A DNA stretch of 64,000 bases, from assembly GCA_037783415.1 (NCBI GenBank), contig JAZGTN010000178.1, positions 372,001 through 436,000 on the forward strand, read 5' to 3'. Position numbers and translations under genes: made by a program. The DNA comes from Leptasterias polaris. Its lineage: Eukaryota; Echinodermata; Asteroidea; Forcipulatida; Asteriidae. The notes below the pieces were generated by a model. That model saw only the letters and a list, made by a program, of their open reading frames with translations. It did not search any database and was not told where the DNA came from. Shown here in pieces: positions 7,151 through 62,669 of the stretch; the stretch's first letter is position 1, and every line of letters starts with the position of its first letter.

Positions 7151-7340
7151 TTGGGTGTGGATATTGACAAATAGGGAGACCGCCATCATAGGGCTGGATA
7201 GCTCAGTTGGTAGAGCGCCGGCACGTCAATCCGGAGGTCGTTGGTTCAAGTCCCGCTCTAGTAAATTTTTCCTTGTTCAACCCCAAATCATTTAAAGTTT
7301 CCCTTGTGGTTTGTTATTTGATAGTTATAGACCCGCGCAA
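7150..7340 (+). mobile_element. tRNA-derived SINE (family A), fullest copy
   Basis: A tRNA-like head starts near 7194. It has an A-box-like 'tagctcagttgg' and a B-box-like 'ggttcaagtcc', but the anticodon stem-loop is imperfect and no acceptor stem closes. It is preceded by 'atattgacaaatagggagacc' and followed by a body ending in 'agtttcccttgtggttt'. The same flanks recur at 26.75, 63.1 and 63.85 kb, so it is a SINE and not a working tRNA gene. The head looks most like Lys/Asn/Asp-type tRNAs. Confidence 0.8.
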
Positions 7341-11721: not shown

Positions 11722-11897
11722 AGTAATCCCATCAGGGTGGAAGGGAGTAAATCCCATCAGGGTGGAAGGGAGTAAATCCCATCAGGGTGGAAGGGAGTAA
11801 ATCCCATCAGGGTGGAAGGGAGTAAATCCCATCAGGGTGGAAGGGAGTAAATCCCATCAGGGTGGAAGGGAGTAAATCCCATCAGGGTGGAAGGGAG
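11722..11897. repeat. 25-bp minisatellite, about 7 copies, in RhoGEF 3' UTR region
   Basis: The unit 'gtaaatcccatcagggtgg' plus 'aaggga' is repeated with almost no divergence, so the expansion is recent or maintained. It lies just downstream of the RhoGEF stop at 11990 (minus strand), so it may be transcribed in the 3' untranslated region. A plus-strand open frame through it is a by-product. Confidence 0.9.
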
Positions 11898-11989
11898 AAA
11901 ATGAAAGAATACAAAATTGTTCTGCAGGCTAGTAATGTTAGGTTTACATAGTTCATTACAAAAATATATATGTTTACAAATTGTACTTG

Positions 11990-12151
11990 CTAGAGAATAA
12001 CACAAATTGCTTGTTGTGAAATGTCGTCTTGATGCTGAGTAGGCTCAGGTGAGGGTTGGCACTGACTGCAGTACACTGATTCCTCTTGACTTGATGTCAT
12101 ATCACACAATGAAACACTCATATCTTGACTTCCTTCAATCCCATAATGCTC
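11990..12151 (-). CDS. ARHGEF39-like: RhoGEF exon 10 (terminal, stop)
   Basis: The acceptor is 'gattacag' and the phase is 0. It encodes 53 residues beginning EHYGIEGSQDMSVSLCDM, Ser/Gln/Glu-rich and acidic, ending AICVIL before TAG at 11992-11990. It was found by continuity of phase, not by homology, so it is the least certain exon. Confidence 0.65.
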   Translation of the reverse strand, partial: EHYGIEGSQDMSVSLCDMTSSQEESVYCSQCQPSPEPTQHQDDISQQAICVIL

Positions 12152-15100
12152 CTGTAATCACAAAATATCAGACACTCTTATAAAGCTGCACAACGTACAT
12201 GGAATCCTGACCACCATTTTATGAGTCAAAATGAACACAAGGAATTGACTCTCAAATTGGCGAAAATTGTAGACAGGCATTGTGCAGAGATGTGGTCCTC
12301 ATTAGCCTTTTTGAGATATGGTGGACACTATATGAGTGCACCGTATGGTTTGGGTGTGTACAGACAGATTTACATGTACCCAAACCAAGCAGTACAATTA
12401 TAATGTGCCCACCATATGTCAAAATGGCTTATGGAGCAAGGGGTACAGACTGCAATGCTAATTGTAGACAGGCATTGTGCAGAGATGCGGTCCTCGTGGA
12501 GCAAGGGGTACAGACTGCAATGCTAATTGTAGACAGGCATTGTGCAGAGATGCGGTCCTCGTGGAACAAGGGGTACAGACTGCAATGCTAATTGTAGACA
12601 GGCATTGTGCAGAGATGCGGTCCTCGTGGAACAAGGGGTACAGACTGCAATGCTAATTGTAGACAGGCATTGTGCAGAGATGCGGTCCTCGTGGAACAAG
12701 GGGTACAGACTGCAATGCTAATTGTAGACAGGCATTGTGCAGAGATGCGGTCCTCGTGGAGCAAGGGGTACAGACTGCAATGCTAATTGTAGACAGGCAT
12801 TGTGCAAGTCTCATACACATTATAACGTTGTGGGAACCCAAGGTTCTTAATATTAGAGCACATACAAGACTTACGTAGTCTATTACATGAGCATTTAACA
12901 TGATAAAAAGCCCCGAGTATGCAGCATGCTCTAGGGTGCTGAACACAATTAAGTGAGGAAAATGCACTGTTTAAGAAACACGTACAACTGTATGGACATT
13001 TTTTTTTAAATCATTTTTTAACAGAAACGGAATTCATTGCTTTTCTGCTATTTTGATTATCCCTTAAAGGCACTGTACACGTTTGGTAATTACTCAAAAT
13101 ATATATTAGCATAAAAACTTACTTGGTAACGAGCAACGGAGAGCTGTTGATGGTATAAAACATTGTGAGAAACGACTCCCTCTGAAGTAACGTAGTTTTT
13201 GAGAAAGAGGTAATTTCTCACTAAAATAATAAAAGACTTATTCCTACATGTATCTGAACGCACACTAATTTGTACAACAAGGGTGTTTTTTCTTTCATCA
13301 TTTTCTTGCAACTTCAATAACCAATTGAGCCCAAATTTTCACAGGCTTGTTATTTTATGCATATGTTGGGATACACCAAGTGAGAATACTGGTCTTTGAC
13401 AATTACAAAACGTGTTCAGTGCCTTTAATAGGAAATTCCCTATAAACAAAGTAACCTTTGTTTACCCCAAAAAGTGACCTTGTATATTCCAAAGAATGTC
13501 CTGAAGGCAGAGATACTACAGTGGTACATTTCTTATCATAACTACCACATAAATTCAAGAGTTATAAAAACAACAGCTGTAAAATTAATACCTTTTTGTT
13601 GTTGGCGAGTTTCAATGGTCCTCGTTGTAATCTATGGGATTTTGTCTTGATGTGTTTACTAGAGCCTGTACCACGTAGTTTCATAGTACTCCGTAACTGC
13701 ATTCTCAAGGGATGTAATGTGTCTTTGTCGTCACTACCATCCTGGAAGAAATAAAACCATATCACCAGAAACATACGTTATGATACTCAAGACAAGCAAA
13801 AACACATTCACTAAAGCAGGATCTGAATCAGCAACCTAGTCATTACAGCAAGAAATTGCATCAACAAAAAATGATAAAACTGCTGGTGAATCGACACTGT
13901 GGTGCCGGTGAATCGACACTGTGGTGCCGGTGAATCGACACTGTGGTGCCGGTGAATCGACACTGTGGTGCCGGTGAATCGACACTGTGGTGCCGGTGAA
14001 TCGACACTGTGGTGCCGGTGAATCGACACTGTGGTGCCGGTGAATCGACACTGTGGTGCCGGTGAATCGACACTGTGGTGCCGGTGAATCGACACTGTGG
14101 TGCCGGTGAATCGACACTGTGGTGCCGGTGAATCGACACTGTGGTGACGGTGAATCGACACTGTGGTGACGGTGAATCGACACTGTGGTGACGGTGAATC
14201 GACACTGTGGTGACGGTGAATCGACACTGTGGTGACGGTGAATCGACACTGTGGTGACGGTGAATCGACACTGTGGTGATAGTGAATCGACACTGTGGTG
14301 ATAGTGAATCTACACTGTGGTGATAGTGAATCTACACTGTGGTGATAGTTAATCTACACTGTAGTGATAGTGAATCTACACTGGTGATAGTTAATCTACA
14401 CTTTGGTGATAGTGAATCTACACTTTGGTGATAGTGTATCTACACTGGCGATAGTGTATCTACACTGGCGATAGTGAATCTACACTGTGGTGGTAGTGAA
14501 TCTACACTGTGGTGGTAGTGAATCTACACTGTGGTGGTAGTGAATCTACACTGGTGATAGTAAATCTACACTCTCATCTACACTCTCCTCAATTCATTAT
14601 TTCATCAGAGTTTAGGATATCTAAATCCTCATGTCTTGACAAACCTCATTTTCTGCATAGTTTCTCATATTTTTTTGTCTACGACTAGATCGAAGTCCGA
14701 TGTTCCTGACCATCTTGCCAAGTGGCACATGTTGGGACCGTAGAGACTTGGTACAAGACATATCAGCTGTGTTGTTAGATTGCTTCTTGTGCTTGATTTG
14801 CTGTATAGCACCCTGTAGTGCATCCATCCATGACAGAGCTATGTTGTGATTTGTTGAATACAACAGCAGTTTCTCCTCACCATATACTACCTGTAGATAA
14901 CAATAAATAATCATCTTAGTGTCAAGAGATTTGTGACATACATAATTGTTCCATCATAAACCATGGCCACTTCACAAACACTGGCTCTAATGGTTATCGT
15001 GTGTCCGTAGGAAATATAGGGATTGCACTAGTGGCACACAAGTCATAAAGAATATTTGTGTTCAATTTTAGACAGATTACGTTAATTTTTCTTTCTTTAA

Positions 15101-18100
15101 AGTTTGGGAAGTGTCTCCCCTTCGGAGCGCTACGGCAGCACAGGGTTGTATACTCCCCAGGGAGCTGAGAAAGATTAAAGGAATGTTATTGGCCCAATGA
15201 CCAGGGCACTAATGTAAAGCGCATTGAGACATTACATTGTATTGTGAAATGCGCTATATAAGAACTAGTTATTATTATTATAATACCCTTGACAATTTTG
15301 ATTGTTTTGAAATGCACAATAGATTTGTTCCAGGCAAATAACTATCAAAGTTTCTATGATTTCAATGGATAATGCAGGTTTAATGACAAATATACATGTT
15401 TAGTACTCATCAGAATATTAATTGAAAAGTTGAATCTGAAAGCTCACTTTACAACCAATTGAATCCTCCAGGTTGGAAGGGATGGTGCATTCATTGAAAA
15501 TTCTCAGATTTTATGAAGTGTGAGAGACCTTGTTACATACTGTACATGAATGTGATTGAATTGTTTTGTAGTTCCCATTTAGTTACCATCAGTATGGTTT
15601 GAGGCTAATTAATAATGTACTTTTACTTAAAAGTTTTAACAGAGCAGAAAACAATTACATGTCCCTGGAAGACGTGAAAAACAAGTGTCTTAGGCTTGCC
15701 ATAAATATTCAAGTCACATCATAATATAATATCAAGAACAATTATTGAATGCAGATTTCACTGATTGGCTTTGTATATACTATGCAAACAGGTTGTGGCT
15801 GCTATCATCATTGCCAGTATACCAAAGAGTAAATGAATAGACCAATCCATTAAGCCCTGCCTCCTTACGAGTTGACCAATCACAGGCGCGAAACCCGATC
15901 ACCATTAGAGCAAAGATCACCAAGCTGCTCAAATGGTGATCAGATTTCGTGGCTGTGATTGGTCAATGAGAAATGGGCGGGGCTTAATGGATTGGTGTAT
16001 TACCTTGAACAGAGCACCAGTGCCTGATATCTTATGTTCTCCCAATACACACTGGACCTCACAGTGTTCTAATGGGTAAACTCCTCTACATGAGTAGCTA
16101 TGTGATGATAATGATGGTTCTAGTAGATTAGGCTTAGCATATATCAATAGATCATTGAACAGGAAGAACATTCGCTCGTGAGCACCGGAACCCTTCTTGT
16201 TTACCTGTCATGACAAGGAATCACTTATTACAAACAATGATGATCATAAGAATAACATTTGGCTTTACCATAAACTGGAGTGTGTTAAGCACTGTATAAT
16301 CTATGCTTTCCGTGAGTCCTGCAGAAAATCTCCCCGGGCATACTTCCTCATGTGGGATTTGAACCCACGACCCTCGTATTCTAGAATAAATATCTTAACC
16401 ACTAGACCAGCAAGCACGAGAGGCCAGTTCAAATCCTGTAAGGAAACAATATCAGGCCCGGTCTAATGGTTAAGATATCTGGGTTCAAATCCCACGGGAG
16501 TAGTTTGCCTGGGGGGGGGGGGGGGGGGGGGGGGGGGGACACTATGTACACAATGCTAATCTCACATTTGTGTTGCATCTATTCAACTGTTAATACGTCA
16601 AACACCTTTTCATGTGTTCGGGCAATCCGCCCAGGACACCTCTTGTTTTTGTACGTTTAAAAAAAATACTTCTTCTTTTTTTTCCCCGCGATTGTTCTGC
16701 AAAAACGCGCACACTTTTCAAGCTCACACAACCTTCAAACTTCATATATAGTTAGATCTTCACTTGTAGAAGACACCCCTGGAGTGACGTGATGATGACG
16801 TCATCAGGTGTCGAATTGTAAGGTTTTTAAACATTTTTTTTTAATCTTTGAAAATCTGTAACAAATCACAAATAAGAGGCCGGCGGTTGCTTACTGCGGG
16901 ATCATACTAAGCTTGGTCATATAGGTGTTCTTTTTTTCGAGGTGTGACTTCCTTACCTCACATGACCTCTACTTCTGGTCAAAACCGGAAGTGCCTTGTA
17001 ATTTGAAAGTGCCAATTTTTGTTGAGTTGTTTTTAACAATGTTGTAATCTGGCCAAGTGTCTGGTTTAAAAAAATAGGACCGGTGACGTCTCACAATTCA
17101 AAAGCGCCCTCTAGCGGCAGCTTCAAAACAGTTCAAAACACACTTTTACTAGATGTCTGTGGCAAAGTTTATGATAATCTTTTCAAAACTGGTAAACATA
17201 ATGACCTTTATGCAGACAACATGATTTTGGAGTCGTAGATGATGACATCAGCATGTGGCATGTGGTAAGGCCCTAAAGGTGCACCTATTGAAGCTGTGTA
17301 TCTACTAAACCAAACAGGCGACTGAGTTGAAACTTGGTGTATTGTTAGACAATGGCCATGGCTAATGAAATATGAAGTGACGTCATGATGACGTCATCCA
17401 GATAGTTTACAATTTTTTGTAATATCAAAGCTTAGACTTTACAAAAATCAAATGTCTGGTTTGGGAGTTATGATTTTTTTTAATCTATTAATCAACAGAA
17501 AGGTATTCAAAATCTGAATGGATGATACACAGAATGTGACCCCATTTGACCTTAAATCATTAAATAAGTTCATCTGGATTGTTGATAATCATGGATTCAG
17601 TCTGACGAAGCTCCTAGCTTAGGAGTGAAACGTAACTAAAATAATATGTAAGTAACATCTACATTATTTTGGATTTAAAAAAATTAACCTCTTATTCCTC
17701 CCATTTAACCTTGTCTTGCTGTTGAAACTGGAAGTTGAAATTTAGTAACGGAAAATTGTTTAACTCATGAACCACATGTTTGATTTTTACAATCTACACA
17801 TCAACAGACAGGTCGTGAAAAGTTCAACAAACACTACACAGAACCTGACCCCATTTGAACTTGACTTCCGGTTCAATCCGGAAGTTTTATGTTTGAAAAA
17901 TCATAACTCCTGAACCACACATTGGCTTCTTCCAATCTATACATCATGGAAAAGTATTTAACAGCTTCACAAATGCTACACAGAGTGTGACTCCACGTGG
18001 GATTTACTTCTGGTCGAAACCAGAAGTGGAAGGGAAAAATAAATATTCCCAGGCCTCGTTTTGTGATCCAAAAACATTATGATCCACAATTAGGACTAGG

Positions 18101-21100
18101 TCTCTTTATACAAAATAAAGTTTGACCCCTGGGTCTTTCAATTAAAAGAGAAATGACATAATAATTTTAACAGCATCCTCTCGTGACAAGTTTTTTTAAA
18201 GGAACTTTTAATTGCTGAAAACCTGTTGCAAAAATCTAAAAAGATTTGAACTTATGATCCGATATGAAATGGGCTTTGGGAACGTCATAATGACACAAGA
18301 AAACCTGAACACCTAGTGTTTGTAATTTTACAAACACTACATTTCTAGTTAACTTCGTAATATAGTGAAGATTGAAAAGGTGTCAGGTCTCTTATTGCTG
18401 TTATATCAAGAATGTGCAAGTTTCAGGCGTATTACAACATTTAGACCCATTAAAAGTGCACAATACACAATGTTAATTCCTTCACACAATAAAACAATGT
18501 ACATTGTTGGAACCTGAAACCTAAATACATGCAAGACTTCCACAGACTCTTGCAATACCAACCTTCATTAGTGTTCCTTCCCGGATGAACCGTCTACCAG
18601 GAGCTATGATCCTCTTAGTTCCTGACCCTGTTAAACTGTTCTGAATTAACAGCATCTTCTGGAAGTTCTCATGTTCACGGATGTACTCATTAATACCATA
18701 AGTCACTTTAGTCATTCTTGCTGTAGCTTCTGCAATACAACATAATGTCAATTATTAAGTTGACCTTTTTTCTAGCTCCAATTTTGGCCGATCAACCACA
18801 TAGTACAAATAGGAGAAGAGGTTTGCCATACAGTGAGGTACCTATAACTACTTTTCTTCAACTGTATCAAATTAAACAAACTATACACTATACTACCAGC
18901 AAAACTAAACAAAGATGAAACTGTGAAATAGTTTCATGATTTGTTATTTTCCCGTTTTCTTTTTGTCTTCTTTTTAAAAGTAATTTTAAGTAACATAAGT
19001 TTGATTAATTAAAACATTTACCTTTTAGTTTGTTATATTCTTCATGATTTTCTGGAGTGTTGTTCAGAAGTTCTTCTAACAAAAGCTTGTATCTGAATTT
19101 GAAGCAATTAAATAAACAAAAAAAGTTGGTAATTAGAACCAAACAAAATCTGATCATCTTAATAGTTGATGGTTATTTAACCCTTTCAGCCCCAAGGGCG
19201 ACTATAGTCGACTGTGCACTATACCCTGCTTCAGCCCCAAAGGCGACTATAGTCGCCCAAGACAACACACAACAAAGCACTCAAGCCTGGGCACAAAGGC
19301 CATTTGTTAAAAAGCTGTAGTTTTGTCCATGTTCACCCTCCATACCCAAGCTTACCATCATTGGAAAGAGAAAGATCGGATCTTTCCAATGACGGTAAAA
19401 TAAGATAGGGTTGTTATTTTGCAACCGCTTCAAATTAGAGTAGAAAGATCCGAAATGCCAAACACCTATGGAGCGCCATAAGGTTGTGTGCAAAAAAGTG
19501 TTTGGGTTTTCAGAACACACTGAGGAAGCAAAGACCAAGAACTTGGACATTTTGTGGCTGATTTCAATGATTTTTGAATTATATGAAAGGAAATTCAATA
19601 AGTAAGACAATTTTTATTACCCCTTATGCTCTTAAATAAAATCTTCAAGGTAATAACAGAGTTTGTAAAGTCAAACTTTGAACACCAGCTTCCTGTTGTG
19701 TCAGGAAGTGTGCTTCACGCTTGAGTGGTCAAAGAACGTGGGCTCCAGCAGTTGTTTATGTCAAAAGAACTTGGGGCTGAAAGGGTTAATAAGCCCTTTC
19801 CCTGTACTAGGGCTTGAACACTGGCTGGTGGTATACCTTGGTATTATTTGTATAGGTGCTATAAGTAAGGCATGTAGGGTAAGGCTTGAACACTGGCTGG
19901 TGGTATACCTTGGTATTCTTTGTATGGGTGCTATAAGTAAGGCATGTAGGGTAAGGCTTGAACACTCTGGCTGGTGGTATACCTTGGTATTCTTTGTATA
20001 GGTGTTATAAGTAAGGCATGTAGGGTAAGGCTTGGACACTGGCTGGTGGTATACCTTGGTATTCTTTGTATAGGTGTTATAAGTAAGGCATGTAGGGTAA
20101 GGCTTGAACACTGGCTGGTGGTATACCTTGGTATTCTTTGTATGGGTGCTATAAGTAAGGCATGTAGGGTAAGGCTTGAACACTGGCTGGTGGTATACCT
20201 TGGTATTCTTTGTATAGGTGCTATAAGTAAGGCATGTAGGGTAAGGCTTGAACACTCTGGCTGGTGGTATACCTTGGTATTCTTTGTATAGGTGCTATAA
20301 GTAAGGCATGTAGGGTAAGGCTTGAACACTCTGGCTGGTGGTATACCTTGGTATTCTTTGTATAGGTGTTATAAGTAAGGCATGTAGGGTAAGGCTTGAA
20401 CACTGGCTGGTGGTATACCTTGGTATTCTTTGTATAGGTGTTATAAGTAAGGCATGTAGGGTAAGGCTTGAACACTGGCTGGTGGTATACCTTGGTATTC
20501 TTTGTATAGGTGCTATAAGTAAGGCATGTAGGGTAAGGCTTGAACACTCTGGCTGGTGGTATACCTTGGTATTCTTTGTATGGGTGCTATAAGTAAGGCA
20601 TGTAGGGTAAGGCTTGAACACTCTGGCTGGTGGTATACCTTGGTATTCTTTGTATAGGTGCTATAAGTAAGGCATGTAGGGTAAGGCTTGAACACTCTGG
20701 CTGGTGGTATACCTTGGTAATCTTTGTATGGGTGCTATAAGTAAGGCATGTAGGGTAAGGCTTGAACACTCTGGCTGGTGGTATACCTTGGTATTCTTTG
20801 TATGGGTGCTATAAGTAAGGCATGTAGGGTAAGGCTTGAACACTGGCTGGTGGTATACCTTGGTATTCTTTGTATAGGTGCTATAAGTAAGGCATGTAGG
20901 GTAAGGCTTGAACACTCTGGCTGGTGGTATACCTTGGTATTCTTTGTATAGGTGCTATAAGTAAGGCATGTAGGGTAAGGCTTGAACACTCTGGCTGGTG
21001 GTATACCTTGGTATTCTTTGTATAGGTGTTATAAGTAAGGCATGTAGGGTAAGGCTTGAACACTGGCTGGTGGTATACCTTGGTATTCTTTGTATAGGTG

Positions 21101-24100
21101 TTATAAGTAAGGCATGTAGGGTAAGGCTTGAACACTGGCTGGTGGTATACCTTGGTATTCTTTGTATAGGTGCTATAAGTAAGGCATGTAGGGTAAGGCT
21201 TGAACACTCTGGCTGGTGGTATACCTTGGTATTCTTTGTATGGGTGCTATAAGTAAGGCATGTAGGGTAAGGCTTGAACACTCTGGCTGGTGGTATACCT
21301 TGGTATTCTTTGTATAGGTGCTATAAGTAAGGCATGTAGGGTAAGGCTTGAACACTCTGGCTGGTGGTATACCTTGGTATTCTTTGTATGGGTGCTATAA
21401 GTAAGGCATGTAGGGTAAGGCTTGAACACTCTGGCTGGTGGTATACCTTGGTATTCTTTGTATGGGTGCTATAAGTAAGGCATGTAGGGTAAGGCTTGAA
21501 CACTCTGGCTGGTGGTATACCTTGGTATTCTTTGTATAGGTGTTATAAGTAAGGCATGAAGGGTAAGGCTTGAACACTCTGGCTGGTGGTATACCTTGGT
21601 ATTCTTTGTATGGGTGCTATAAGTAAGGCATGTAGGGTAAGGCTTGAACACTCTGGCTGGTGGTATACCTTGGTATTCTTTGTATAGGTGTTATAAGTAA
21701 GGCATGAAGGGTAAGGCTTGAACACTCTGGCTGGTGGTATACCTTGGTATTCTTTGTATGGGTGCTATAAGTAAGGCATGTAGGGTAAGGCTTGAACACT
21801 CTGGCTGGTGGTATACCTTGGTATTCTTTGTATAGGTGTTATAAGGCATGAAGGGTAAGGCTTGAACACTCTGGCTGGTGGTATACCTTGGTATTCTTTG
21901 TATAGGTGTTATAAGTGAGGCATGTAGGGTAAGGCTTGAACACTCTGGCTGGTGGTATACCTTGGTATTCTTTGTATGGGTGCTATAAGTAAGGCATGTA
22001 GGGTAAGGCTTGAACACTCTGGCTGGTGGTATACCTTGGTATTCTTTGTATAGGTGTTATAAGTAAGGCATGTAGGGTAAGGCTTGAACACTCTGGCTGG
22101 TGGTATACCTTGGTATTCTTTGTATGGGTGCTATAAGTAAGGCATGTAGGGTAAGGCTTGAACACTCTGGCTGGTGGTATACCTTGGTATTCTTTGTATA
22201 GGTGTTATAAGTGAGGCATGTAGGGTAAGGCTTGAACACTCTGGCTGGTGGTATACCTTGGTATTCTTTGTATAGGTGTTATAAGTGAGGCATGTAGGGT
22301 AAGGCTTGAACACTCTGGCTGGTGGTATACCTTGGTATTCTTTGTATGGGTGCTATAAGTAAGGCATGTAGGGTAAGGCTTGAACACTCTGGCTGGTGGT
22401 ATACCTTGGTATTCTTTGTATAGGTGTTATAAGTAAGGCATGTAGGGTAAGGCTTGAACACTCTGGCTGGTGGTATACCTTGGTATTCTTTGTATGGGTG
22501 CTATAAGTAAGGCATGTAGGGTAAGGCTTGAACACTCTGGCTGGTGGTATACCTTGGTATTCTTTGTATAGGTGTTATAGTAAGGCATGTAGGGTAAGGC
22601 TTGAACACTCTGGCTGGTGGTATACCTTGGTATTCTTTGTATAGGTGTTATAAGTAAGGCATGTAGGGTAAGGCTTGAACACTCTGGCTGGTGGTATACC
22701 TTGGTATTCTTTGTATAGGTGTTATAGTAAGGCATGTAGGGTAAGGCTTGAACACTGGCTGGTGGTATACCTTGGTATTATTTGTATAGGTGCTATAAGT
22801 AAGGCATGTAGGGTAAGGCTTGGACACTGGCTGGTGGTATACCTTGGTATTCTTTGTATAGGTGTTATAAGTAAGGCATGTAGGGTAAGGCTTGAACACT
22901 GGCTGGTGGTATACCTTGGTATTCTTTGTATAGGTGTTATAAGTAAGGCATGTAGGGTAAGGCTTGAACACTGGCTGGTGGTATACCTTGGTATTCTTTG
23001 TATAGGTGTTATAAGTAAGGCATGTAGGGTAAGGCTTGAACACTGGCTGGTGGTATACCTTGGTATTCTTTGTATAGGTGTTATAAGTAAGGCATGTAGG
23101 GTAAGGCTTGAACACTGGCTGGTGGTATACCTTGGTATTCTTTGTATAGGTGTTATAAGTAAGGCATGTAGGGTAAGGCTTGAACACTCTGGCTGGTGGT
23201 ATACCTTGGTATTCTTTGTATAGGTGTTATAAGTAAGGCATAGGGGGTAAGGCTTGAACACTGGCTGGTGGTATACCTTGGTATTCTTTGTATAGGTGTT
23301 ATAAGTAAGGCATGAAGGGTAAGGCTTGAACACTCTGGCTTTGACTCCTGTTCCCTCAGAAACTGCACAAATGCTGCACGCTTACGCTCCCACTCCTGTC
23401 AACAAATCATATTGTCAGTTCATGAAACCAAACTGTTACTAATAAAAATGTATTTTTTTCCAATAAATTGCTGGAACCAAAGTTTTAAATGTAGAAAAAA
23501 TCTTCTGTTAATATCCTTTCTGGTATTGATATAAGAATTACAATGTGTGGTGCAGTCAGGCCAGCAATTATCAACATTCAAATAGATAAAATAGGCAAAA
23601 TATTTTAGGATAGAGGTCCCTAAGAGATCATAATAACACAATCAACGAGTAAATATTTGTTACCTGCAATTTTTGTGAAGCCTTCTCAAAATTGTTTGCA
23701 TAAGTGCAGTAGACTTTCATGAATGGAGCCAACTGAATGAAAGCCTCTGGAATCCCCTTCTCCTCCATGTGGCAAAGAAGCTCTCTATTGACTGCTTGCA
23801 CTGCTGTTACATTCTCAAATATAGTACGATGATCTTCACTTGGGATGAGACCTTGTGCTCCCAAAGGAACCAAGAAATGCTACAAGAAGTAAACACAACA
23901 ATTTAATTATTGCACAATGGAAATCAATACTGTGTCTAAAAATAATAATAATTTTTAAATGGCACAAATTTAGCAAATCTGGTCACTAGTCTGACACAAA
24001 TGGATGGAAATTGCAGAAAATGTTCCATACAAGTGTCAGGGGGGGGGGGGGGACATTTACAACTATGGCCACCCCGTTCTATTGGGGTTCTATTGGGTGT

Positions 24101-26552
24101 AGTTCCACTATAGGCCACGCCTACTTTACAGAAAATGGCTCCGCTGATAGAATGTGCAAGTCTCGCGCGTAAGCAAAATTCCGGGACCATTGTAATCCCA
24201 AACATATGGAGTTTTACGTTGGGAAGATTTTGTTTCGTCTATTATTTTAGTTTAACGTACTTTATGAGCATGAAAATTGCATGTTGTTGGGAATGTAATA
24301 CTAAGTGATAAAAAATATGAAATTAACATCAATTCAACAATACAACGAAGAAAACACAAGAATTAAACTTGACCTCTGTTTCCGGTTACTTGCAAAAAAA
24401 TTAAAATTTGGGCCCACCTCCGATCACCAAGTTTATTTTGGTCGCGCGATGATAATAACCAGATGCTGTAATTGTCAGACGCTAAGCCTTTTCGTTGCAG
24501 TCTACAGTTGTTGAGGTGTCAGTGTTCTCTTTAAAATGCGTCACGCGTTAATTCTACGCCCGTGCGATCATCGCGCGTCTGCGTTTAAACTAGCTTTTAG
24601 TGGCTGCACGTACGTACTCAGGCGTGGATTTACAAAAGGGGTTCCTAAAAAATTAAGATCAAATAAGCATCCTTGTCCAAGAGATTTTAGTTTGTTTCAA
24701 CAAAAAACTAACAAATGATTTGTGTGTTTATTATGAAAGATAAAACTCATTTTATACAAACTGTAATGATTATTTTTGTTGGTCAGATTTTTTCATGGAT
24801 CTAATTTAAAAACAGTGATTTGATTTCAAAAACAAATAATGTTCCTCGCTTGACGTGTTTTCTCGCTCCGGTACGCGCGAGACTTGCACAGTCTATTACC
24901 AGAAGCCCATAGGAGTGAGCTAGTTTACTCAGAATGAAAAGTTTTTATCCATAAGAAATGCTTTTGAATGATAAAATGGGTCATTTGGGGTAAATTACAC
25001 ACAAACGTATGCCAGCTTTGGAGCCAGAAGTAACCAAAAATTGTGGGCTTGCAGCAGAATGACCAGATACTCCGGCCATGTGACACAATGACTTACCAAC
25101 AGGATTAACTTTACATAGACAGGAAGGATTCGGACTCGGACAAAGGGGTACTCGGACTCAGACTCAGACTCAAACAGGTACTCGACTAAAACAATGGTAC
25201 AATGTCATCCACTGCATGCACGGATTGTTCAGAAGTGGTTCAACATTAAGAACCATACAAATGACAATGTTGTAAGAAACCTCAAGTTCGAAAAATATTT
25301 TCTTTTGAGTTTTTTATAATTTTATCAAGCATAAACTAAGCAATATTGTACAAAAACTTTAAAAATTTAGCTTTAGATTCCATCAATGTTATCTTCTTGT
25401 TTCAGGGCTTACATAGAGCTACATGTACTATATCATTATCAAAAAACCTGGCCAATACTGGCCATGACCACCCTACATGTACATGTAGTCTCTGTGAAAT
25501 TTCTGGGTAACAAACAAAATGAAGACATAGAAAAATATGAAAACATGAAAACAGAAGTCAAAAAATCTTTGAAAAGTTTAATTTAAAAACTTACCTCCAC
25601 AATGATTGCCAGGTGATTCTGATACTTTCTCTCTGTGGTAAAAATTTCACAAACAATTCGTTCACGTTTACGAGCCATTTTGACTCCATGGTTACCCTGG
25701 AACTTGTCACATAGTAAATGCTCCAAATCTCCTCGGAAAGCTTCCCTGCCTTTTGATAGCCTCTCTCGCCAGCTCAGTGATCGATTTACTGTAAGATCAT
25801 AAACAACATGGTTCTCAATTTATAGATTGTTACTTTTGTCTTGGAGATAACCTGTCAACATGGTCAATGTCAAAATGTACTTTAGAATGGGTTTGTTTAA
25901 AGACTCCATTGGATTGGTACATGTAGCCATCTGATATACATACAAAGTAAATGTAAGACATGAACCTCACAACAAGCATCGTTGTCAATAACACATGGGC
26001 CCAATTTCATAAAGCCTGTAAGCACAAAAACTTGCTAAGCACAGAAAAACATTGCTTAGCCAAAACAGGTTACCTGCCAACATTCGATAAAGTTAACATT
26101 GTAACGACTGGTTTCCCACTCATTTTTGGCTAAGCAAATAATTTTCCCAAGCAGTATTTTCTGCTAAATAGCTTTATGAAATTGGGCACTGACCTCAGTT
26201 ACATTGACATGTACTGTATTTTATAACAACTCCAACTGTTAATTCCCAAACAAACAGGAGTCTGACTTGTCTCATAATGCCAGCTTAAAAAAACAGTCAT
26301 ATACAGTGTATATAAGCAAAAGAAATCTACGAAAATTATGATAAATGTGAAGAGTTCAGAGCTTGAATTTAAAAAGAAATTGATGCATCAGAAAGTAAAT
26401 GACATCTGAAAAGTTGCAGGTTTACATCCCAGGTCTGTACAGTAAAAACGTCAATTGAATATCAAGACAACAACTTTTAGAAACTCACACTTTTTTTTTC
26501 GACTGTTGAGTGGACGATAGGTGGCTCTTTCTGGTGACAGATTTTCGTCCAT
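11990..26552 (-). CDS. ARHGEF39-like: Dbl-family RhoGEF (DH-PH), ARHGEF39-like; ten-exon gene
   Basis: This protein should activate Rho-family GTPases by GDP/GTP exchange at membranes. Coding exons on the minus strand are 26489-26552, 25595-25788, 23664-23879, 23277-23395, 19022-19092, 18563-18729, 16004-16204, 14645-14890, 13592-13741 and 11990-12151. All have AG/GT borders and matching phases and total 1590 bases (529 residues plus stop). The DH domain runs from about residue 58 to 255, with CR1 around RERIVCEIFTTERKYQNHL and CR3 PIQRIPRYKLLLEELL at 192-207. The PH domain spans about 263-378, with Trp365 in its last helix. The motif MFFLFNDLLIYAKP and the short N-terminus without FYVE or SH3 domains fit ARHGEF39. 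A tail of about 150 residues beyond PH is longer than in the human protein and has no domain I know. FGD or another small GEF is the alternative. Introns hold several tandem arrays and MITEs. Confidence 0.85.
12430..12810. repeat. 65-bp tandem repeat, about 6 copies, in RhoGEF last intron
   Basis: 'attgtagacaggcattgtgc' starts at 12461, 12526, 12591 and so on, period 65 bp, with a single-copy outlier at about 12263. Copies are almost identical (gcaaggg versus acaaggg). Long open frames on both strands follow the unit and are not evidence of a gene. Confidence 0.88.
13064..13428 (-). mobile_element. TTAA-flanked MITE, copy 1 (family B)
   Basis: A 365-bp element with inverted ends AAAGGCACTGTACACGTTTG and a degenerate match at the right end (GTGTTCAGTGCCTTT reversed). 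It is flanked by TTAA on both sides, the target duplication of piggyBac-type transposases. It is collinear in reverse with the copy at 59321-59702. Decayed parts of the family lie near 10.2 kb and 39.6-39.85 kb. It sits in the last intron of the RhoGEF gene. The short minus-strand open frame inside it is not a gene. Confidence 0.85.
13592..13741 (-). CDS. ARHGEF39-like: RhoGEF exon 9 (basic tail)
   Basis: Exactly 50 codons in phase 0, acceptor 'ttcttccag' and donor 'aag|gtatta'. It encodes residues 427-476, rich in Lys, Arg and Ser (LRSTMKLRGTGSSKHIKTKS). It lies beyond the PH domain; function unknown, possibly a membrane- or partner-binding tail. Confidence 0.75.
13880..14575. repeat. 22-bp minisatellite, about 31 copies, with ordered variants
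   Basis: The unit is 'ggtgaatcgacactgtggtgcc'-like with a 22-bp period. Variants are ordered along the array: gccggtgaatcgac at low coordinates, then gacggtgaatcgac, then gatagtgaatctac, and ragged shorter units after 14370. It fills about three quarters of the 0.9-kb RhoGEF intron between exons 8 and 9. Because 22 is not a multiple of 3, all minus frames stay open in a staggered way; these frames are not genes. Confidence 0.93.
14645..14890 (-). CDS. ARHGEF39-like: RhoGEF exon 8 (PH C-terminus)
   Basis: The exon has 82 codons in phase 0. VVYGEEKLLLYSTNHNIALS leads to Trp365 and the closing amphipathic helix MDALQGAIQQIKHKK. After residue 380 the sequence becomes basic and Ser/Arg-rich with no known fold. 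Confidence 0.87.
15118..15286 (+). mobile_element. tRNA-Leu-type SINE (family C), 3' part
   Basis: Shares 'gtatactccccagggagctga' and a 3' end of 'aaagcgc...gcgctatataag' plus (att)n with the reverse-oriented copy at 62.3 kb. The tRNA head is missing. Confidence 0.7.
15841..15998. mobile_element. Palindromic MITE abutting the RhoGEF exon 7 donor
   Basis: The ends 'accaatccattaagccctgc' and its inverted match 'gggcggggcttaatggattgg' bound about 158 bp. Internal inverted segments are 'gaccaatcaca' / 'tgtgattggtc'. The element begins about 5 bases inside the intron, so it follows directly on the GTAATA donor of exon 7. Confidence 0.8.
16004..16204 (-). CDS. ARHGEF39-like: RhoGEF exon 7 (PH core)
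   Basis: Encodes residues 278-344, including HERMFFLFNDLLIYAKPN and CRGVYPLEHCEVQ, the PH beta strands, close to the ARHGEF39 pattern. The acceptor is 'catgacag'. The donor 'aag|gtaata' runs directly into the terminal inverted repeat of a MITE. Confidence 0.88.
16335..16540. mobile_element. Two opposed tRNA-like SINE fragments and a G(28) tract
   Basis: On the minus strand, 16430-16335 reads like a tRNA head (ggtctagtggttaagatatt, B box ggttcaaatccca). A shortened plus-strand copy follows at 16457-16500 (ggtctaatggttaagatatc, ggttcaaatccca). An uninterrupted run of 28 G then occupies 16511-16538. This looks like inverted SINE insertion with loss of the middle. Confidence 0.65.
16700..18060. 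repeat. Old GACGTCA/CCGGAAGT-rich dispersed repeat
   Basis: Units containing 'tgaccccatttgaacttgac', 'cttccggttcaatccggaag' and 'gatgacgtcatc' recur imperfectly near 16790, 16970, 17390, 17540, 17860 and 18000. They resemble the 130-bp array at 1.1-2.3 kb and a fragment at 31.66-31.88 kb. This is probably an ancient repeat family within a RhoGEF intron. No coding content. Confidence 0.55.
18563..18729 (-). CDS. ARHGEF39-like: RhoGEF exon 6 (DH end, PH start)
   Basis: Encodes residues 222-277. ATARMTKVTYGINEYIREHE is the last DH helix, with the DH-PH linker after it. The first PH strand is RRFIREGTLMK, the usual GxLxK pattern. The acceptor is 'attgcag' and the donor 'aag|gttggt', a weaker donor than most in the gene. 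Confidence 0.87.
19022..19092 (-). CDS. ARHGEF39-like: RhoGEF exon 5
   Basis: A 71-base exon, acceptor 'aattcag' and donor 'aag|gtaaat', encoding YKLLLEELLNNTPENHEEYN and KLK with split codons at both ends. It continues the CR3 helix interrupted by the 4.2-kb array-bearing intron. It is too short for ordinary ORF listing and was found by phase and DH homology. Confidence 0.85.
19177..19789. mobile_element. piggyBac-type MITE (TTAA, CCCTTT ends)
   Basis: TTAA (19177-19180) is followed by CCCTTTCAGCCCCAAG; the exact inverse CTTGGGGCTGAAAGGG is followed by TTAA (19786-19789). The 605-bp body has no transposase frame. Near the left end the segment 'cagccccaaggcgactatagtcg' occurs twice, with the palindrome GCGACTATAGTCGC. 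TTAA target sites and CCC-starting ends are the piggyBac signature. It sits in the RhoGEF intron immediately downstream (in gene direction) of the 74-bp array. Confidence 0.85.
19811..23338 (-). repeat. 72/74-bp tandem array made of a RhoGEF exon segment plus its splice donor (~48 copies)
   Basis: On the minus strand each 74-bp unit has 62 bases identical or nearly identical to the end of RhoGEF exon 4, encoding PECSSLTLHALLI(A/T)PIQRIP and two bases, and then GTATACCACCAG. The gene-proximal copy (23277-23338) is the real exon end, since exon 5 continues the DH helix in the right phase. Units lacking 'ag' are 72 bp, which keeps the frame across neighbours. Other units are 74 bp; one near 21840 is shorter. 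Copies differ by a few recurring substitutions (gta/gaa, ggtgct/ggtgtt, ataggt/atgggt), and blocks of several units recur, which suggests homogenisation. Long open frames in several frames on both strands are by-products. Confidence 0.95.
23277..23395 (-). CDS. ARHGEF39-like: RhoGEF exon 4 (source of the 74-bp array)
   Basis: The acceptor is 'tgacag'. The exon encodes residues 159-197 plus two bases of Arg198: EWERKRAAFVQFLREQESK, then PECSSLTLHALLITPIQRIP. Its last 62 bases are the first copy of the downstream tandem array. The donor at 23276 is AG|GTATAC. Splicing to exon 5 completes AG|A (Arg198) and yields RYKLLLEELL, the hallmark DH CR3 sequence. This junction proves that the array unit derives from the exon. 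Using the next copy's donor, 72 bases on, would add 24 codons in frame. Confidence 0.85.
23664..23879 (-). CDS. ARHGEF39-like: RhoGEF exon 3 (DH middle)
   Basis: The exon has 72 codons in phase 0, with acceptor 'cttgtag' and donor 'cag|gtaaca'. It encodes residues 87-158. HFLVPLGAQGLIPSEDHRTI leads into the IFENV helix, followed by FIQLAPFMKVYCTYANNFEK, the CR2 region of DH domains. Confidence 0.88.
24039..24052. repeat. G(14) homopolymer
   Basis: An uninterrupted run of 14 G in an intron between RhoGEF exons 2 and 3. A length-unstable site. Confidence 0.9.
24148..24894. mobile_element. Non-autonomous TIR DNA transposon, ~747 bp
   Basis: The left end 'tagaatgtgcaagtctcgcg' and the right end, whose reverse complement is 'tagactgtgcaagtctcgcg', form inverted repeats of about 24 bp with one mismatch. 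The inside is CG-richer than its surroundings near both ends, with no transposase frame. It lies in the RhoGEF intron between exons 2 and 3. Confidence 0.78.
25595..25788 (-). CDS. ARHGEF39-like: RhoGEF exon 2 (DH start)
   Basis: The acceptor is 'cttacag' and the donor 'gag|gtaagt'. It encodes residues 22-86. From residue 58, KMARKRERIVCEIFTTERKY is the first conserved DH helix, which contacts the GTPase switch I region in this family. The catalytic glutamate expected in this helix is plausible at IVCE or TTE, but I cannot settle which without an alignment. Confidence 0.82.
25996..26189. mobile_element. MITE with GCCCAATTTCATAAAGC ends, ~194 bp
   Basis: The ends are 'gggcccaatttcataaagcc' and inverted 'agctttatgaaattgggcac', with internal short inverted words (gctaagca / tggctaagc). 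A related longer element is at 41286-41669. In the first RhoGEF intron. Confidence 0.8.
26489..26552 (-). CDS. ARHGEF39-like: RhoGEF exon 1 (start codon)
   Basis: ATG is at 26552-26550. The exon encodes residues 1-21, beginning MDENLSPERATYRP and ending in three lysines, plus one base. The donor is T|GTGAGT and the phase matches exon 2. This is the only start that joins exon 2 in frame here. It is too short for ordinary ORF detection. Confidence 0.7.
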
Positions 26553-27287: not shown

Positions 27288-28330
27288 CAGGTTTCCGAAC
27301 CCACAAGAACTAGTGATCGAGCCAGCAACATCCTGGACCTGAAGCACCAAGATAGTGTAAGGAATCAGTGATCATGATGCTGTTCTAAGTGAGGTTGATC
27401 TTCATCCCAAAATCAGTAAGAAAAACCAAGAAGAATCTTCATCTACAGCAAGGAGGATATATGGTGTAAAATCAGACAATGGGGAAGAACATTCCTAGTA
27501 AAGTCCAAAAATATTGTGCCAACCAAGCTTGGATTACTCACTCCATCAAACGTATGATTAGGAAGAAGGCCAGAATGTACAAGAAGGGGAAGACGTCCAA
27601 TTCTAGAACTGACTGGGACCACTTCAAATCATTCCGGAAGAGTGTACAGATCCTACTGGTCATACATTGTACACCAACCGTATGCTATATGATCCTGATG
27701 ATAAACACAAGAAAAGTTTCTGGCGTTTCATCAAAGCCAAGCGGCAAGACAGCACTGGTATTTCACCCCTAGTAGTCAACAATAACACATAGTCTCCGAC
27801 ACTAAGGGGAAGCCCAAAATTCTAAACACACAGTTCATGTCAGTGTTCACTTCAGAAAGTCTCTCTAACCTACATTTGTACATTGTACCATCATTGGGTG
27901 AATCTCCTTTTCCTGATGTCCAGCACATACAGGTCTCAGTGAAGGGGTGAGCAAGTTGCTGAAAGAAATTAACACAACCAAAGCAACAGGTCCTGACTCA
28001 ATCCCAGCTCGGGTCTTGAAAGAGATGGCAGACGAAATATCACCTATCCTCACATCCATCTTTCAGCAGTCCTTGGATAGTGGCGAGGTTCCTCATGACT
28101 GGCGGATTGCCAAAGTAGCCCCAATATTCAAGAAGGGCGACCGCAGTACAGCCTCCAACTACAGACCAGTGTCACTCACCTCAATATCGTGTAAGATACT
28201 TGAACATATCATCTTCAGCCAAGTAATGGGCCATTATGACACTCACAACATCCTGACTGACTGTCAACATGGCTTTCGTCGTGGTCGTTCCTGCGAGTCA
28301 CAACTGATCATAACAACCAATGACTTTTCA
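27288..28330 (+). pseudogene. APE-type non-LTR retrotransposon (LINE), 5' part: endonuclease end and RT start
   Basis: Frames in order: TRTSDRASNILDL and GISDHDAVLSEVDLHPKIS, the last part of an apurinic-type endonuclease with its Ser-Asp-His motif; a basic linker (WITHSIKRMIRKKARMYKKG); then the RT start with ATGPDSIPARVLKE, IFKKGDRSTASNYRPVSLTS and HGFRRGRSCESQL (RT blocks 1-3). Reading frame breaks occur near 27650, 27770 and 27930. The RT is cut before its catalytic aspartates by another insert at about 28325. It is dead. A CR1/L2/Jockey-like clade is likely, not fixed. Confidence 0.85.
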
Positions 28331-29100
28331 TTTCATTTCATTTATTAATTTCACAGGTAAAAATGCAAAGTACAAAAAAATGAGAACGATAAAGAAAACA
28401 TAAAAATATACATGTACACAAAGGAGAGAAAAAAGAAAGGAGAGAAAAAAGAAAGAAGAAAAAAAAGTAAAACAAAAAAGTAGCACCCCTGATGGATTTT
28501 TAAAAAGTAAACTAAATTACTATCAAGTTAATCTCCTGATGCCACAATTAAGAAACAGACAATATTAAAGGGCATTATGGACATTAATAAAACATGGCTT
28601 ACAGTATAAAAATATGAGAACTATGTAATTAAAACTATAAAAGCACATTGGGCATTTTAAAATACAAACTTGGTAAAAGAGAGATTCTGGAAATTTACAA
28701 TGTAAAAAGCACTATGAATATTGAGAATAAAAACATTCAGCAAGGTATTTGTAATGGCTTGGCAATGTTAAACAGTTTTGGTCAAGGGGACTTCCTGGCC
28801 AGGGACTAATAAATGATTTCTGAGTGAATTTGTAAAGGAGGATAAACTATGGATAATTGTGTCTTTAATAAAAAATCTTGGGAATCTGTGAAAAAGAGAA
28901 TGATGGGCAGCATTGGATCGAGCCCGTTGATGGCAAAATTTAACAGATTCGATATGTCTACAATTAATGGGAAATAGAGTGTCAGTGTCAATGTCAAATT
29001 TGTTATAAACATTAAATAACAAACGTTATTGAAAGGAAATGAACCCTGTTGATTAAAAGCTTGACACACCTGTCTGAATACTCGATTTCATTGACAGAAT
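28325..29100 (-). mobile_element. Retroposon-like insert with (TGAAA)n tail, inside the LINE
   Basis: On the minus strand the sequence ends in 'aataaatgaaatgaaatgaa', a short pentamer tail typical of CR1/L2-like elements. A-rich stretches follow. A minus-strand frame at 29022-28768 (Arg/His/Phe/Leu-rich) could be a decayed RT C-terminus, but I cannot assign it. It separates LINE RT block 3 from the LINE C-terminal part, and about 130 RT codons are missing. Confidence 0.5.
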
Positions 29101-34657: not shown

Positions 34658-34733
34658 TATACACGTACCGTAATAAAATGTTCTGCCAAATGTTCACCTG
34701 TTTCTTGTCTATTTCTACCTCCTGATTTTAAGC

Positions 34734-34890
34734 ATGGATTTATCACTATCTGGATGTGGATTTTTGGGAATCTACCATATTGGTGTAGCAAGTTGTTTTA
34801 AAGAACACGCACCGAATGTGATTCGAAACGTTAGTGGAGCTTCGGCGGGTGCCTTGGTTGGTTGTTGTTTGGTAGCAGATGTTGATTTTG
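34734..34890 (+). CDS. PNPLA2-like: PNPLA exon 1 (oxyanion loop and nucleophile)
   Basis: Starts at ATG and reads MDLSLSGCGFLGIYHIGVAS, then NVSGASAGALVG with the serine nucleophile. The donor is 'tttg|gtaagt', phase 1. No earlier in-frame ATG joins it without a stop nearby. Confidence 0.9.
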
Positions 34891-37800
34891 GTAAGTCTCT
34901 TAATAATGATACATTATTAGTAGTTATAACCACGTATTATTACTATTTAGTATAGTACTATTACAAGAGCGAACCAAGACCTTGACTCTTCCTGGAGAAA
35001 ACGCCAGCATGATTTGTATGTTTACACAAAAAGTAGGGGGGGGGGGGGCCCTAAAGTATTCTGCAATGAATTATATCTGTCCTTGCTCTATGATTATTCT
35101 TATTCTTATTCTTATTCTTTATTCAGCCAATAAAACAAGCGAACAATACATTAGGGAACAGAATACATGTACAATAATACGGTAACGACTAAGAGGGAAT
35201 GGGATAGAGGATACAGTGAAGACAAACAAAACATAAAAACCAATCTGTGATGGCCAGGATCAACAAAAGTGTACTCAAACACTGTAGCCCGAAAGCTTGT
35301 TGACGTATTGAAGTATTGACGTATCCACTCCATCATGTTATCTACACTCTTCAGTTTTCTGATTCATTGTAAAATTGTACACTTGCAACAAAATAAAGTT
35401 CATGTTTATTTTGTTTTTAAAAGAAGGCCGGGTGGTTTGTTTTGAAACATGTAAGCAATTTTGGCACTTGGCCAGCTCTGAGTGATGTCGCGTGATCATC
35501 AACCCACCACACACGTTGGTGACAACAAAGCCTATTCGTTCTAGAAGAAGGGTATCCATTGGTCTGTGTAACCAGGTTTGGGGGCGCGTCTCTGTTATTG
35601 ACCAATCATATTAGGGACCGCACACGGACTACCCCATATTCATGCACTATAAAGACGGATCCGACTGCACAAAAAATCTCGAAAATCGACCGAATTTTTG
35701 CCAGGTTTGCTGTGAGTTGAAGGGTAAGTATTATTTATTTGAAAAATTTGAGTATAGGGGGGCATTTGATCTTAAAAAGAAGGGCGGAAGTGGAAAGATC
35801 GAGGTCTAAATAAGGTAAATACGATGTTTTTTAAATTTAACCGGGCGGGGGTTCGTCTTCGTTTCCATGCGCTAATTTGCGCCGGCAATTTTTTTCAAAC
35901 TTGTCCTGCCCGATTTGGTGTCAAAAAATAAAAATGTGTAGGTCAATTTAAGCCCTATATTCCCCGATTAATTTTTAGTTTAGGACTTTAAAACCCATGT
36001 TTGTCAGTCACTGTCGGTGTAGTTTTGACATTCAATACTCGTGCTTGCGCTCTTGACAATCCATGAAAATCCTCTTAGGTTAATCTTTATTTCCAGAGGG
36101 AGTAAGTTTAATTATTGTAACAAGTGAAAAGCTATCTTTCTCCTTACCTTTTGGCTGTTCTCGTTGAAAACATACTTCCTGCGTAAATTGATGTAACTTT
36201 TTTCGTGTTTTTTATTAATTATGTTTACATTTTATTGTTGCACATGTACAATTTCACAATAAAACAAATTATACATCTATATATACATACTAAGACTAAG
36301 AGATGGATTTGGATAAAATAGTTATTCTTTTCTGGAGTGGGGGGTAAAAAAAATAATATATAAACAAATCTTCCTCTGCTCCTCGTCTGCCATCAGCATG
36401 CTTTTGCTCACCATTTTAAATCTACAAACACAATAATAATATTTGGCTAAATATTTATTTGTTCATCTTTTTTTTTCCAGGAATCTTCACCAAATACCAC
36501 GGGTGTTTTCCTTGGAAGTATGGAGGCAACGCATTGTCCATCATCACTCCAGACCACCTCGACAATCAAAACACGAGACCACCTTTAGCGCAGAATCTCT
36601 CTTGGTGCAGGCATTGGTATTCGTACATACTTGGCTGTTGTGATGATTTCAATACTTTCGTTTTTGATGTTATCCAGTCAGCTCTGTGACATCGCTTTAT
36701 GTGTTGATATTGAGTTAAACAAGAGTATTTGGTTACCTAGATTTTTTAATACATAAACGCCCAATTTCTACAGCAATTGTAAATGAGGCACAAGTAATAT
36801 AGCCTATGTTTTTAATAAAACTGCTGCTTTTGTACAATCAAAAATTGATACAGAGTTGGAAGATTTGGTAAAAACTGTTAGGTCTGAGGCAAGAAAAACA
36901 CAGCTGACTAACGAAATTGCAGAAACTGGACTATGGCAGTCAAACGAGCAGATGGCAGAATACCTAAATACACAAAAAACAAACAAAAAGAAATTTGAAG
37001 CAGTAAAGAAACAAATACTCTTTCGTAGAGAAGTACTCAACCAGTTTATGGAGGAGGACAAAGGGTTCACATTTACTGTTGTTGTCCCCAATACTACAAA
37101 GCGAATTGACAAACCACTCTCTGACATTCAGTCACACCTGACTAAAATGATCAATGCAGCAAAATCAGTTGCTCATTCTCAGTCTGTTAAAAAAACTCCC
37201 GATAATAAATATTTAAAAATTCCTTTGTTAGTTGGGAAAACAGTTTCTCATCTTTGGAATACAGATGATGGTTCAGAGTGGTACACAGGTAATGTTATCA
37301 GTCAAGTCCCAGGATTTCCCTCTTGTTATATTAAACATCACATATGATATGAAAATGACCCCAAAGTATATTCTCTCTGTCTTGTCGATGATTTCAAGGA
37401 CAACTCTTTGAAAATTATTGTAAATTTTTTTTCTCTGGCTTGCTTACTTGTTTATGCCGGTGAAGTTCATCAAATAATGGCTCTCCATTGTCTTCTGGGT
37501 AGTCATGGTTTTCATAAAAAGGACAATGCATTAACAATCTGTCAAGTGTCAACCCTGCCTGATCATGAAAAATAAGTATCATGTAAAGTTAACTTTTAAA
37601 GTCACCTGGAAATAGAATTAATTTTTTTTTAAATATAAGAGTATATGTATATTAACAATAAAACAATTTTTTGAGTAATTGTTTGTCAGTATTTATATGT
37701 TAAAAAAATATATAAAGTTGTTTGGGGGCGACTCCGCCCATCCCTTTTTGTGACGTCAATCGAGGAAGACTTCGCCTCGATTGAACATCGACCCCCACTC

Positions 37801-62322: not shown

Positions 62323-62668
62323 AATAATAATAATATGGATTTATATCGCGCTTTATCACACCCAAGGGCGTCTCAAATCGCTTCGAACATTATTACCCCT
62401 GGTCACTGGGCCATTCCTTAAACCATCTCAGCTCCCTGGGGAGTATACAGCCTGTGCTGCAATATATGCGCTACTAGGCTAAATCAATCACAAGAACCAT
62501 CTCTGCCCTCACAGGTACCCATTTTACCCCTGGCTGGAGAGAAGCAATTATAGTTAAGTGTCTTGCTCAGGGACACAAGTGTCACGACCGGGACTCGAAC
62601 CCACACTCTGCTGAACAGAAACACCAGAGCTTGAGTTCGGTGCGCTTAACCGCTCGGCCACGACACGC
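62323..62668 (-). mobile_element. tRNA-Leu-type SINE (family C), full copy
   Basis: On the minus strand: head 'gtgtcgtggccgagcggtta', 'cgaactcaagctctggtgtt' (anticodon-loop CAA, Leu-type), B box 'gggttcgagtcccggtcgtg'; body 'aagacacttaactataattg' and 'gggtacctgtgagggcagag'; 3' end 'gcgatataaatccatattat' and (att)n. The tRNA fold is closed by the repeated gtgtcg / cgacac ends. Best reference copy in the window. Confidence 0.88.
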
Positions 62669-62669
62669 C

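Follow-up and report, generated by a model that had tools for sequence, protein, structure and literature searches.

A tandem array of an exon end and its splice donor in intron 4 of a predicted ARHGEF39-like gene of the sea star Leptasterias polaris

The host gene and the array in its fourth intron

The window analysed here is a 64,000-nucleotide stretch of the genome of the sea star Leptasterias polaris (assembly GCA_037783415.1, contig JAZGTN010000178.1, forward-strand positions 372,001 to 436,000). On its minus strand lies a predicted ARHGEF39-like gene (11990..26552), and the fourth intron of this gene holds a tandem array whose repeat unit consists of the 3' end of exon 4 together with its splice donor. 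A tblastn search with the Asterias rubens 'rho guanine nucleotide exchange factor 39-like' protein matched that protein from first to last residue in ten coding exons, running from MDENLSPERATYRPLNS to ...QAICVIL (the borders of exons 1, 8, 9 and 10 are approximate). The reading frame is open across exons 2-8, and over the 358 residues searched from these exons the A. rubens homologue is 96% identical; among the 120 matches listed, two sea stars come next at 82%, followed by sea urchins and a sea cucumber (57-59%). The best matches are named RhoGEF 39-like, and Pfam recognises both a RhoGEF domain (E 2.4e-46) and a PH domain (E 4.4e-10). Judged by its sequence, the host gene is an ARHGEF39-like DH-PH RhoGEF.

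For comparison we selected 16 of the 120 listed homologues for alignment, covering sea stars, other echinoderms, a hemichordate, corals, molluscs and a brachiopod. The predicted host protein ends in CVIL (11990-12154, minus strand), and a cysteine stands fourth from the C-terminus in 12 of the 16 homologues (e.g. CVIL, CTIL, CIIL, CAVM). We take this ending to be a CaaX-like box, which suggests a lipid-anchored RhoGEF. The host gene is also rich in tandem arrays, since three further minisatellites lie within or just past it (11725-11902, 12432-12806 and 13885-14553, with units of 25, 65 and 22 bp, respectively), none of them overlapping a coding exon.

Exon 4 (23277..23395, minus strand) is 119 bp long, encodes a DH-domain segment ending in ALLITPIQRIPR, and its junctions with exons 3 and 5 keep the reading frame. 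Exon 5 (YKLLLEELLNNTPENHEEYNKLK) occupies 19022..19092 on the same strand, with its acceptor at 19093. The final 64 bases of exon 4 constitute the founder copy of the repeat, and the other 55 are private to the exon. TRF reported a single array at 19811-23340 (period 74, 48.2 copies, 96% matches, score 6416), far beyond chance. Read on the minus strand, it comprises the founder unit (23267..23340; 64 exon bases plus GTATACCACC), 47 full copies of 70-74 bp (19827..23266), each carrying the donor AAG/GTATACCACC (the slash marks the exon-intron boundary), and a terminal 16-base partial copy, AGCCAGTGTTCAAGCC (19811..19826), which abuts the remaining intron (CTAGTACAGGG...). No further copies of the repeat were found outside intron 4 within the window.

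The 47 full copies are strikingly uniform. Twenty-nine are 74 bp long and 15 are 72 bp, with one copy each of 73, 71 and 70 bp. The 72-bp class lacks two bases, with loss of PE; other deletions affect three copies and amino-acid changes a few. Founder, full copies and partial copy together make 49 pieces but only 16 distinct sequences. Identity to the founder ranges from 91.9 to 100% (mean 96.3%, gaps scored as mismatches), and mean pairwise identity among the full copies is 97.9% (gaps ignored). Copies u22 (21659..21732, minus strand) and u24 (21584-21511), both from the middle of the array, match the founder over all 74 bases. The donor context CCAAG/GTATACCACC is present in 48 of 48 units.

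These results bear out a sequence-only reading of the locus, which had described a tandem array of the exon 4 end with its donor, the first copy being the real exon and about 47 others filling the next intron; it also placed two donors (23276 and 23204) and the acceptor (19093) correctly. Its division of the unit into 62 exon and 12 intron bases is possible, and a division into 64 and 10 equally so, because the repeat border shares AG. Its statement that every unit reads the same motif was too broad: the donor is universal, but 25 of the 47 copies retain PECSSLTLHALLI(A/T)PIQRIP intact, and 36 the shorter CSSLTLHALLI(A/T)PIQRIP.

Intron 4 now measures 4184 bp and is the longest of the host gene's nine. 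Besides the array it contains a 613-bp non-autonomous insert (19177..19789, minus strand), 21 bases from the array end, with TTAA at both ends and perfect 16-bp terminal inverted repeats (CCCTTTCAGCCCCAAG). No transposase was seen in the insert, which from its TTAA ends and repeat form we presume to be piggyBac-like. With array and insert removed, 119 bp of intron would be left, beginning GTATACCACCCTAG and ending in a normal acceptor.

Descent, age and growth of the array

The exon segment LITP.QR.PR is kept in all 16 aligned homologues, and in 15 of them the very next residues are YK, so that the segment runs uninterrupted into what is here exon 5. The conservation of the segment and its continuation argue for an ancestral exon 4 from which the array was derived, as had been claimed from the sequence alone; orthologues lacking the segment, which would have told against that claim, did not appear in the alignment. 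One hemichordate sequence (P0038, a Saccoglossus prediction) diverges from the other 15 immediately after IPR, where intron 4 lies; a wrongly joined exon in the prediction would produce such a break.

By sequence divergence the copies are young: two of the 47 are identical to the exon unit, and the pairwise mean is the 97.9% given above. All full copies carry TCA AGC CTT ACC as the host exon does, save two with CCA for TCA, whereas the residues found there in relatives (CTSLS in A. rubens; CASLT and CANLT in A. planci and P. miniata) occur in none of the 47. Sharing of the host codons rather than the relatives' residues suggests that amplification, or else the latest complete homogenisation of the array, probably came after the split from A. 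rubens, as far as the relatives' proteins can date it.

The copies give no sign of protein-level selection. Among seven point changes (a count that omits the three-base change in copy u01 and all length changes), two are synonymous and five non-synonymous, against a 25% synonymous expectation. We therefore rejected selection for coding capacity as what keeps the copies, two in seven being near the neutral value. Searching databases with the 219-residue frame formed by exon 4 and the first copies yielded eight matches at E<=10 among 7991 scored candidates (best E 0.31), seven with a RhoGEF domain and one with leucine-rich repeats. The exact 24-base junction between copies had no match in viral contigs or prokaryote genomes, a search from which near-window records may be excluded; this is expected for an animal sequence.

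The order of the unit types records how the array has grown. A string of eight units, KHKDDKKL, repeats at an offset of nine; a run of eight arose in none of 2000 shuffles of unit order, in which the longest was five. At the nucleotide level, 609 bases (20771..21379, minus strand) recur exactly 660 bases on (20111-20719). With so long a stretch identical at this distance, copies have spread as blocks of several units: this is multi-unit duplication, as by unequal exchange. Periodicity measured by offset identity alone is weak (permutation 0.046), and the firm result is the eight-unit run.

For the origin of the array we propose three steps. In the first, a templated copy of 16-18 bp of exon bases (AGCCAG(AG)TGTTCAAGCC) would have been inserted 10 bp into an intron of about 119 bp, creating direct repeats some 74 bp apart, the inserted copy and its source in exon 4. 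The partial copy AGCCAGTGTTCAAGCC is proposed to be what remains of this seed. In the second, unequal exchange or slippage between the direct repeats would have multiplied the unit, which would account both for the partial last copy and for the 72- and 74-bp classes (from a seed arm without AG and an exon arm with it). In the third, blocks of several units would have spread. The seed step yields an exact, checkable prediction for the orthologous intron and would illustrate how a boundary minisatellite may start.

Donor choice and competing explanations

To follow the consequences of donor choice, we spliced exon 4 onto exon 5 computationally with each of the 48 donors in turn. Donor 1 restores the conserved protein. 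Donor 2 (GT at 23203..23204, minus strand) adds 24 residues in frame and is the only other donor that leaves the frame open. The remaining 46, donors 3-48, all reach an in-frame TAA in copy u02 (23153..23155, minus strand), as does retention of the intron. Transcripts from donors 3-48 would thus end prematurely and would likely be removed by nonsense-mediated decay.

Our preferred interpretation, in which we have good confidence, is that the array is a boundary minisatellite, or 'mirage', which most likely expanded from the 3' end of exon 4 and its donor into the gene's own intron and is probably tolerated because the first donor would still be selected. In support of tolerance, splicing is described, in the portions of the reports cited, as undisturbed by lancelet mirages that have AG/GT in many of their repeats (PMC3087553, PMC3902484). 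Donor 1 is distinguished solely by lying 119 bases from the exon 4 acceptor, by the private 55 bases upstream and by being transcribed first. In a fourth step of the proposed history, it would be selected by exon definition (through the exon 4 acceptor and the private bases) and by first-come transcription; if splicing is correct, these are the likely causes of first-donor use.

Several observations weigh against this interpretation. The authentic donor is weak: its U1 pairing of -5.7 kcal/mol is the weakest among the six donors of exons 2-7, the others ranging from -6.6 to -10.7. As the donor bases are the same in every copy, site strength cannot explain a preference for the first. The first donor also has low accessibility (0.0022 and 0.0015 under two settings, where the copies average 0.0011 and span 0.0002-0.0186); since this lies within the range of the copies and U1 pairing is equal, neither property singles out donor 1, and position does. 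In classic tests of duplicated donors the one nearer the acceptor is often favoured, and here that would be the wrong one. The last 17 columns of the unit, on the donor side, are invariant and could suggest selection; a hand estimate of (57/74)^11, about 0.06, is not significant. Finally, the seed step is based on a single junction, and a deletion at the far end of the array would leave the same form; as sources of the partial copy, the two are alternatives of equal standing.

Two further ideas about the RNA were rejected. Masking of the decoy donors by RNA structure was dropped because exon 4 with the first two copies folds worse than shuffled sequences (z +2.07; 197 of 200 folded at least as well) and the accessibility of donor 1 is not distinct. 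The repeat does contain a palindrome, GGTATACC. The copies might also be read as separate small exons, as CACCAG follows each full copy, but the tract preceding it is 47% pyrimidine and only 12 bases separate the copies, which is below the minimum intron size. Pyrimidine content at seven acceptors of the host gene is 47-73% (that of exon 2 measured two bases off), with the acceptor of exon 4 itself at 47%. There is likewise no support for splicing that links one donor with the CACCAG following the next copy, although it may occur.

An unlikely alternative is that the array is a working splice switch, in which shifts in the choice among 48 equal sites would divert some transcripts to a stop codon or, through donor 2, to a longer form, making RhoGEF output dependent on copy number. 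The open frame of donor 2, with its 24 additional DH-domain residues, the convergence of donors 3-48 on one TAA, the weakness of the authentic donor and the invariance of the donor bases (48 of 48) would all suit such a device. In a more specific form, to which we give an equally small probability, the share of transcripts escaping the common stop would depend on how many 72- and 74-bp units there are and in what order they stand, and donor 2 would make a second protein with part of the DH core doubled. Against a switch, youth alone predicts invariant donors, the copies lack a selection signal, and lancelet mirages are reported, in the parts of the literature cited above, without aberrant mRNA.

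It is similarly improbable that the array is harmful, with splicing failing often and the allele a hypomorph or dying copy. Premature stops from 46 of 48 donors and from intron retention would be in keeping with damage, but the rest of the gene looks intact: ten exons were identified, exons 2-8 read through without a stop, and the 358 residues compared with A. rubens are 96% identical. We consider it less probable still that the copy number or the whole array stems from misassembly: homogeneous arrays are difficult to assemble, and the exact copy number may be wrong, but the 16 distinct unit types stand in ordered blocks with clean junctions at both ends. That a satellite came first and was captured as coding sequence is barely credible: although the exon is identical to some copies, its segment is conserved in the aligned echinoderms, corals, molluscs, brachiopod and hemichordate, while the copies are near-identical to one another and, in the window, confined to intron 4.

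The array bears on the old question of how one donor is chosen among equals, which test constructs usually address with just two sites or a few more. In this intron all 48 donors are identical in their bases, and the 58-64 bases of exon sequence upstream of them are almost so. Site strength is thereby removed as a variable, leaving position and the private 55 bases to differ.

Some other features of the window lie outside the host gene. Rfam predicts a tRNA at 7192-7264 (plus strand; 40.3 bits) that is not in the ARAGORN list, and ARAGORN predicts two tRNA-Leu (caa) genes (46333-46418 and 62579-62669), neither of which is in the Rfam results. At 1128-2257 lies a tandem array built of 131-bp units, in which pairs of units give a period of 261 bp. 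On the plus strand are a piece of a patatin-like phospholipase gene (34677-34955; Pfam E 2.3e-11) and a reverse transcriptase fragment that falls under the Pfam cut-off (27917-28348; 26.2 of 29.6 bits).

Comparison with known boundary repeats

Mirages are described from lancelets as tandem exon-intron boundary duplications in Adh3, the globins BflGb6 and BflGb9, TnC and PGBD5, the repeat unit measuring 10-72 bp in Adh3 and, in a globin, 150-160 bp (PMC3087553, PMC3902484). In the portions of these reports drawn on here, AG/GT occurs in many but not all repeats, splicing is regular and without aberrant mRNA, and array length is unstable. The sea star array shares with them minisatellite-like copies over an exon-intron boundary, the presence of splice signals in many of the repeats and the concerted evolution of its units. 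Its unit spans the boundary (64 exon and 10 intron bases, the founder overlapping exon 4), the authentic exon is its terminal copy with the remainder in the adjoining intron, and its repeats carry splice signals (donor context in 48 of 48). Because it displays these three sequence-testable features, we count it among the mirages. The past duplication of a block of units bears on length instability, though indirectly.

As far as those accounts go, it resembles BflGb9 in that the 3' boundary of an exon is duplicated in both. In BflGb6 the acceptor side is repeated, with six and three units in two haplotypes, compared with 48 donors here. Unit identity is 92-100% in our array versus 81-100% in the lancelet, and the host is an echinoderm. 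The structure, which the sequence-only reading had called unusual, is thus of a known kind; its copy number and uniformity are what is remarkable.

Other systems offer partial parallels, within what the cited sources relate. Internal repeats of human duplicated genes (PMC2812944) likewise expand as minisatellites at exon-intron boundaries, but there units averaging 30 bp are repeated four times and some make new introns or coding repeats, whereas here an existing intron has apparently just been enlarged. Intron gain by tandem duplication also involves a duplicated segment, either one containing AGGT (the Rogers model) or one across a boundary, as in potato RdRp (PMC4974935) and as here. In potato the duplication made an intron; no new intron is evident in the sea star gene, whose intron is apparently older than the array: the homologous protein is unchanged, and a plausible old intron of 119 bp remains. 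The hemichordate prediction P0038 departs at that point in the way an intron located there would lead one to expect. The CapA satellite, suggested to stem from a NOS1AP intron (as cited in PMC8210747), is another case of single-copy genic sequence amplified in one lineage, with an intronic source instead of an exon and donor; the sea star repeat is not known to have dispersed. The variable number tandem repeat of CTNS (PMC5628181) and the earthworm metallothionein repeats (PMC12783039) were set aside as boundary parallels because, in the passages cited, they are plain intronic minisatellites. The open-licence literature searched contained no echinoderm mirage; if our interpretation is correct, boundary minisatellites are not peculiar to lancelets.

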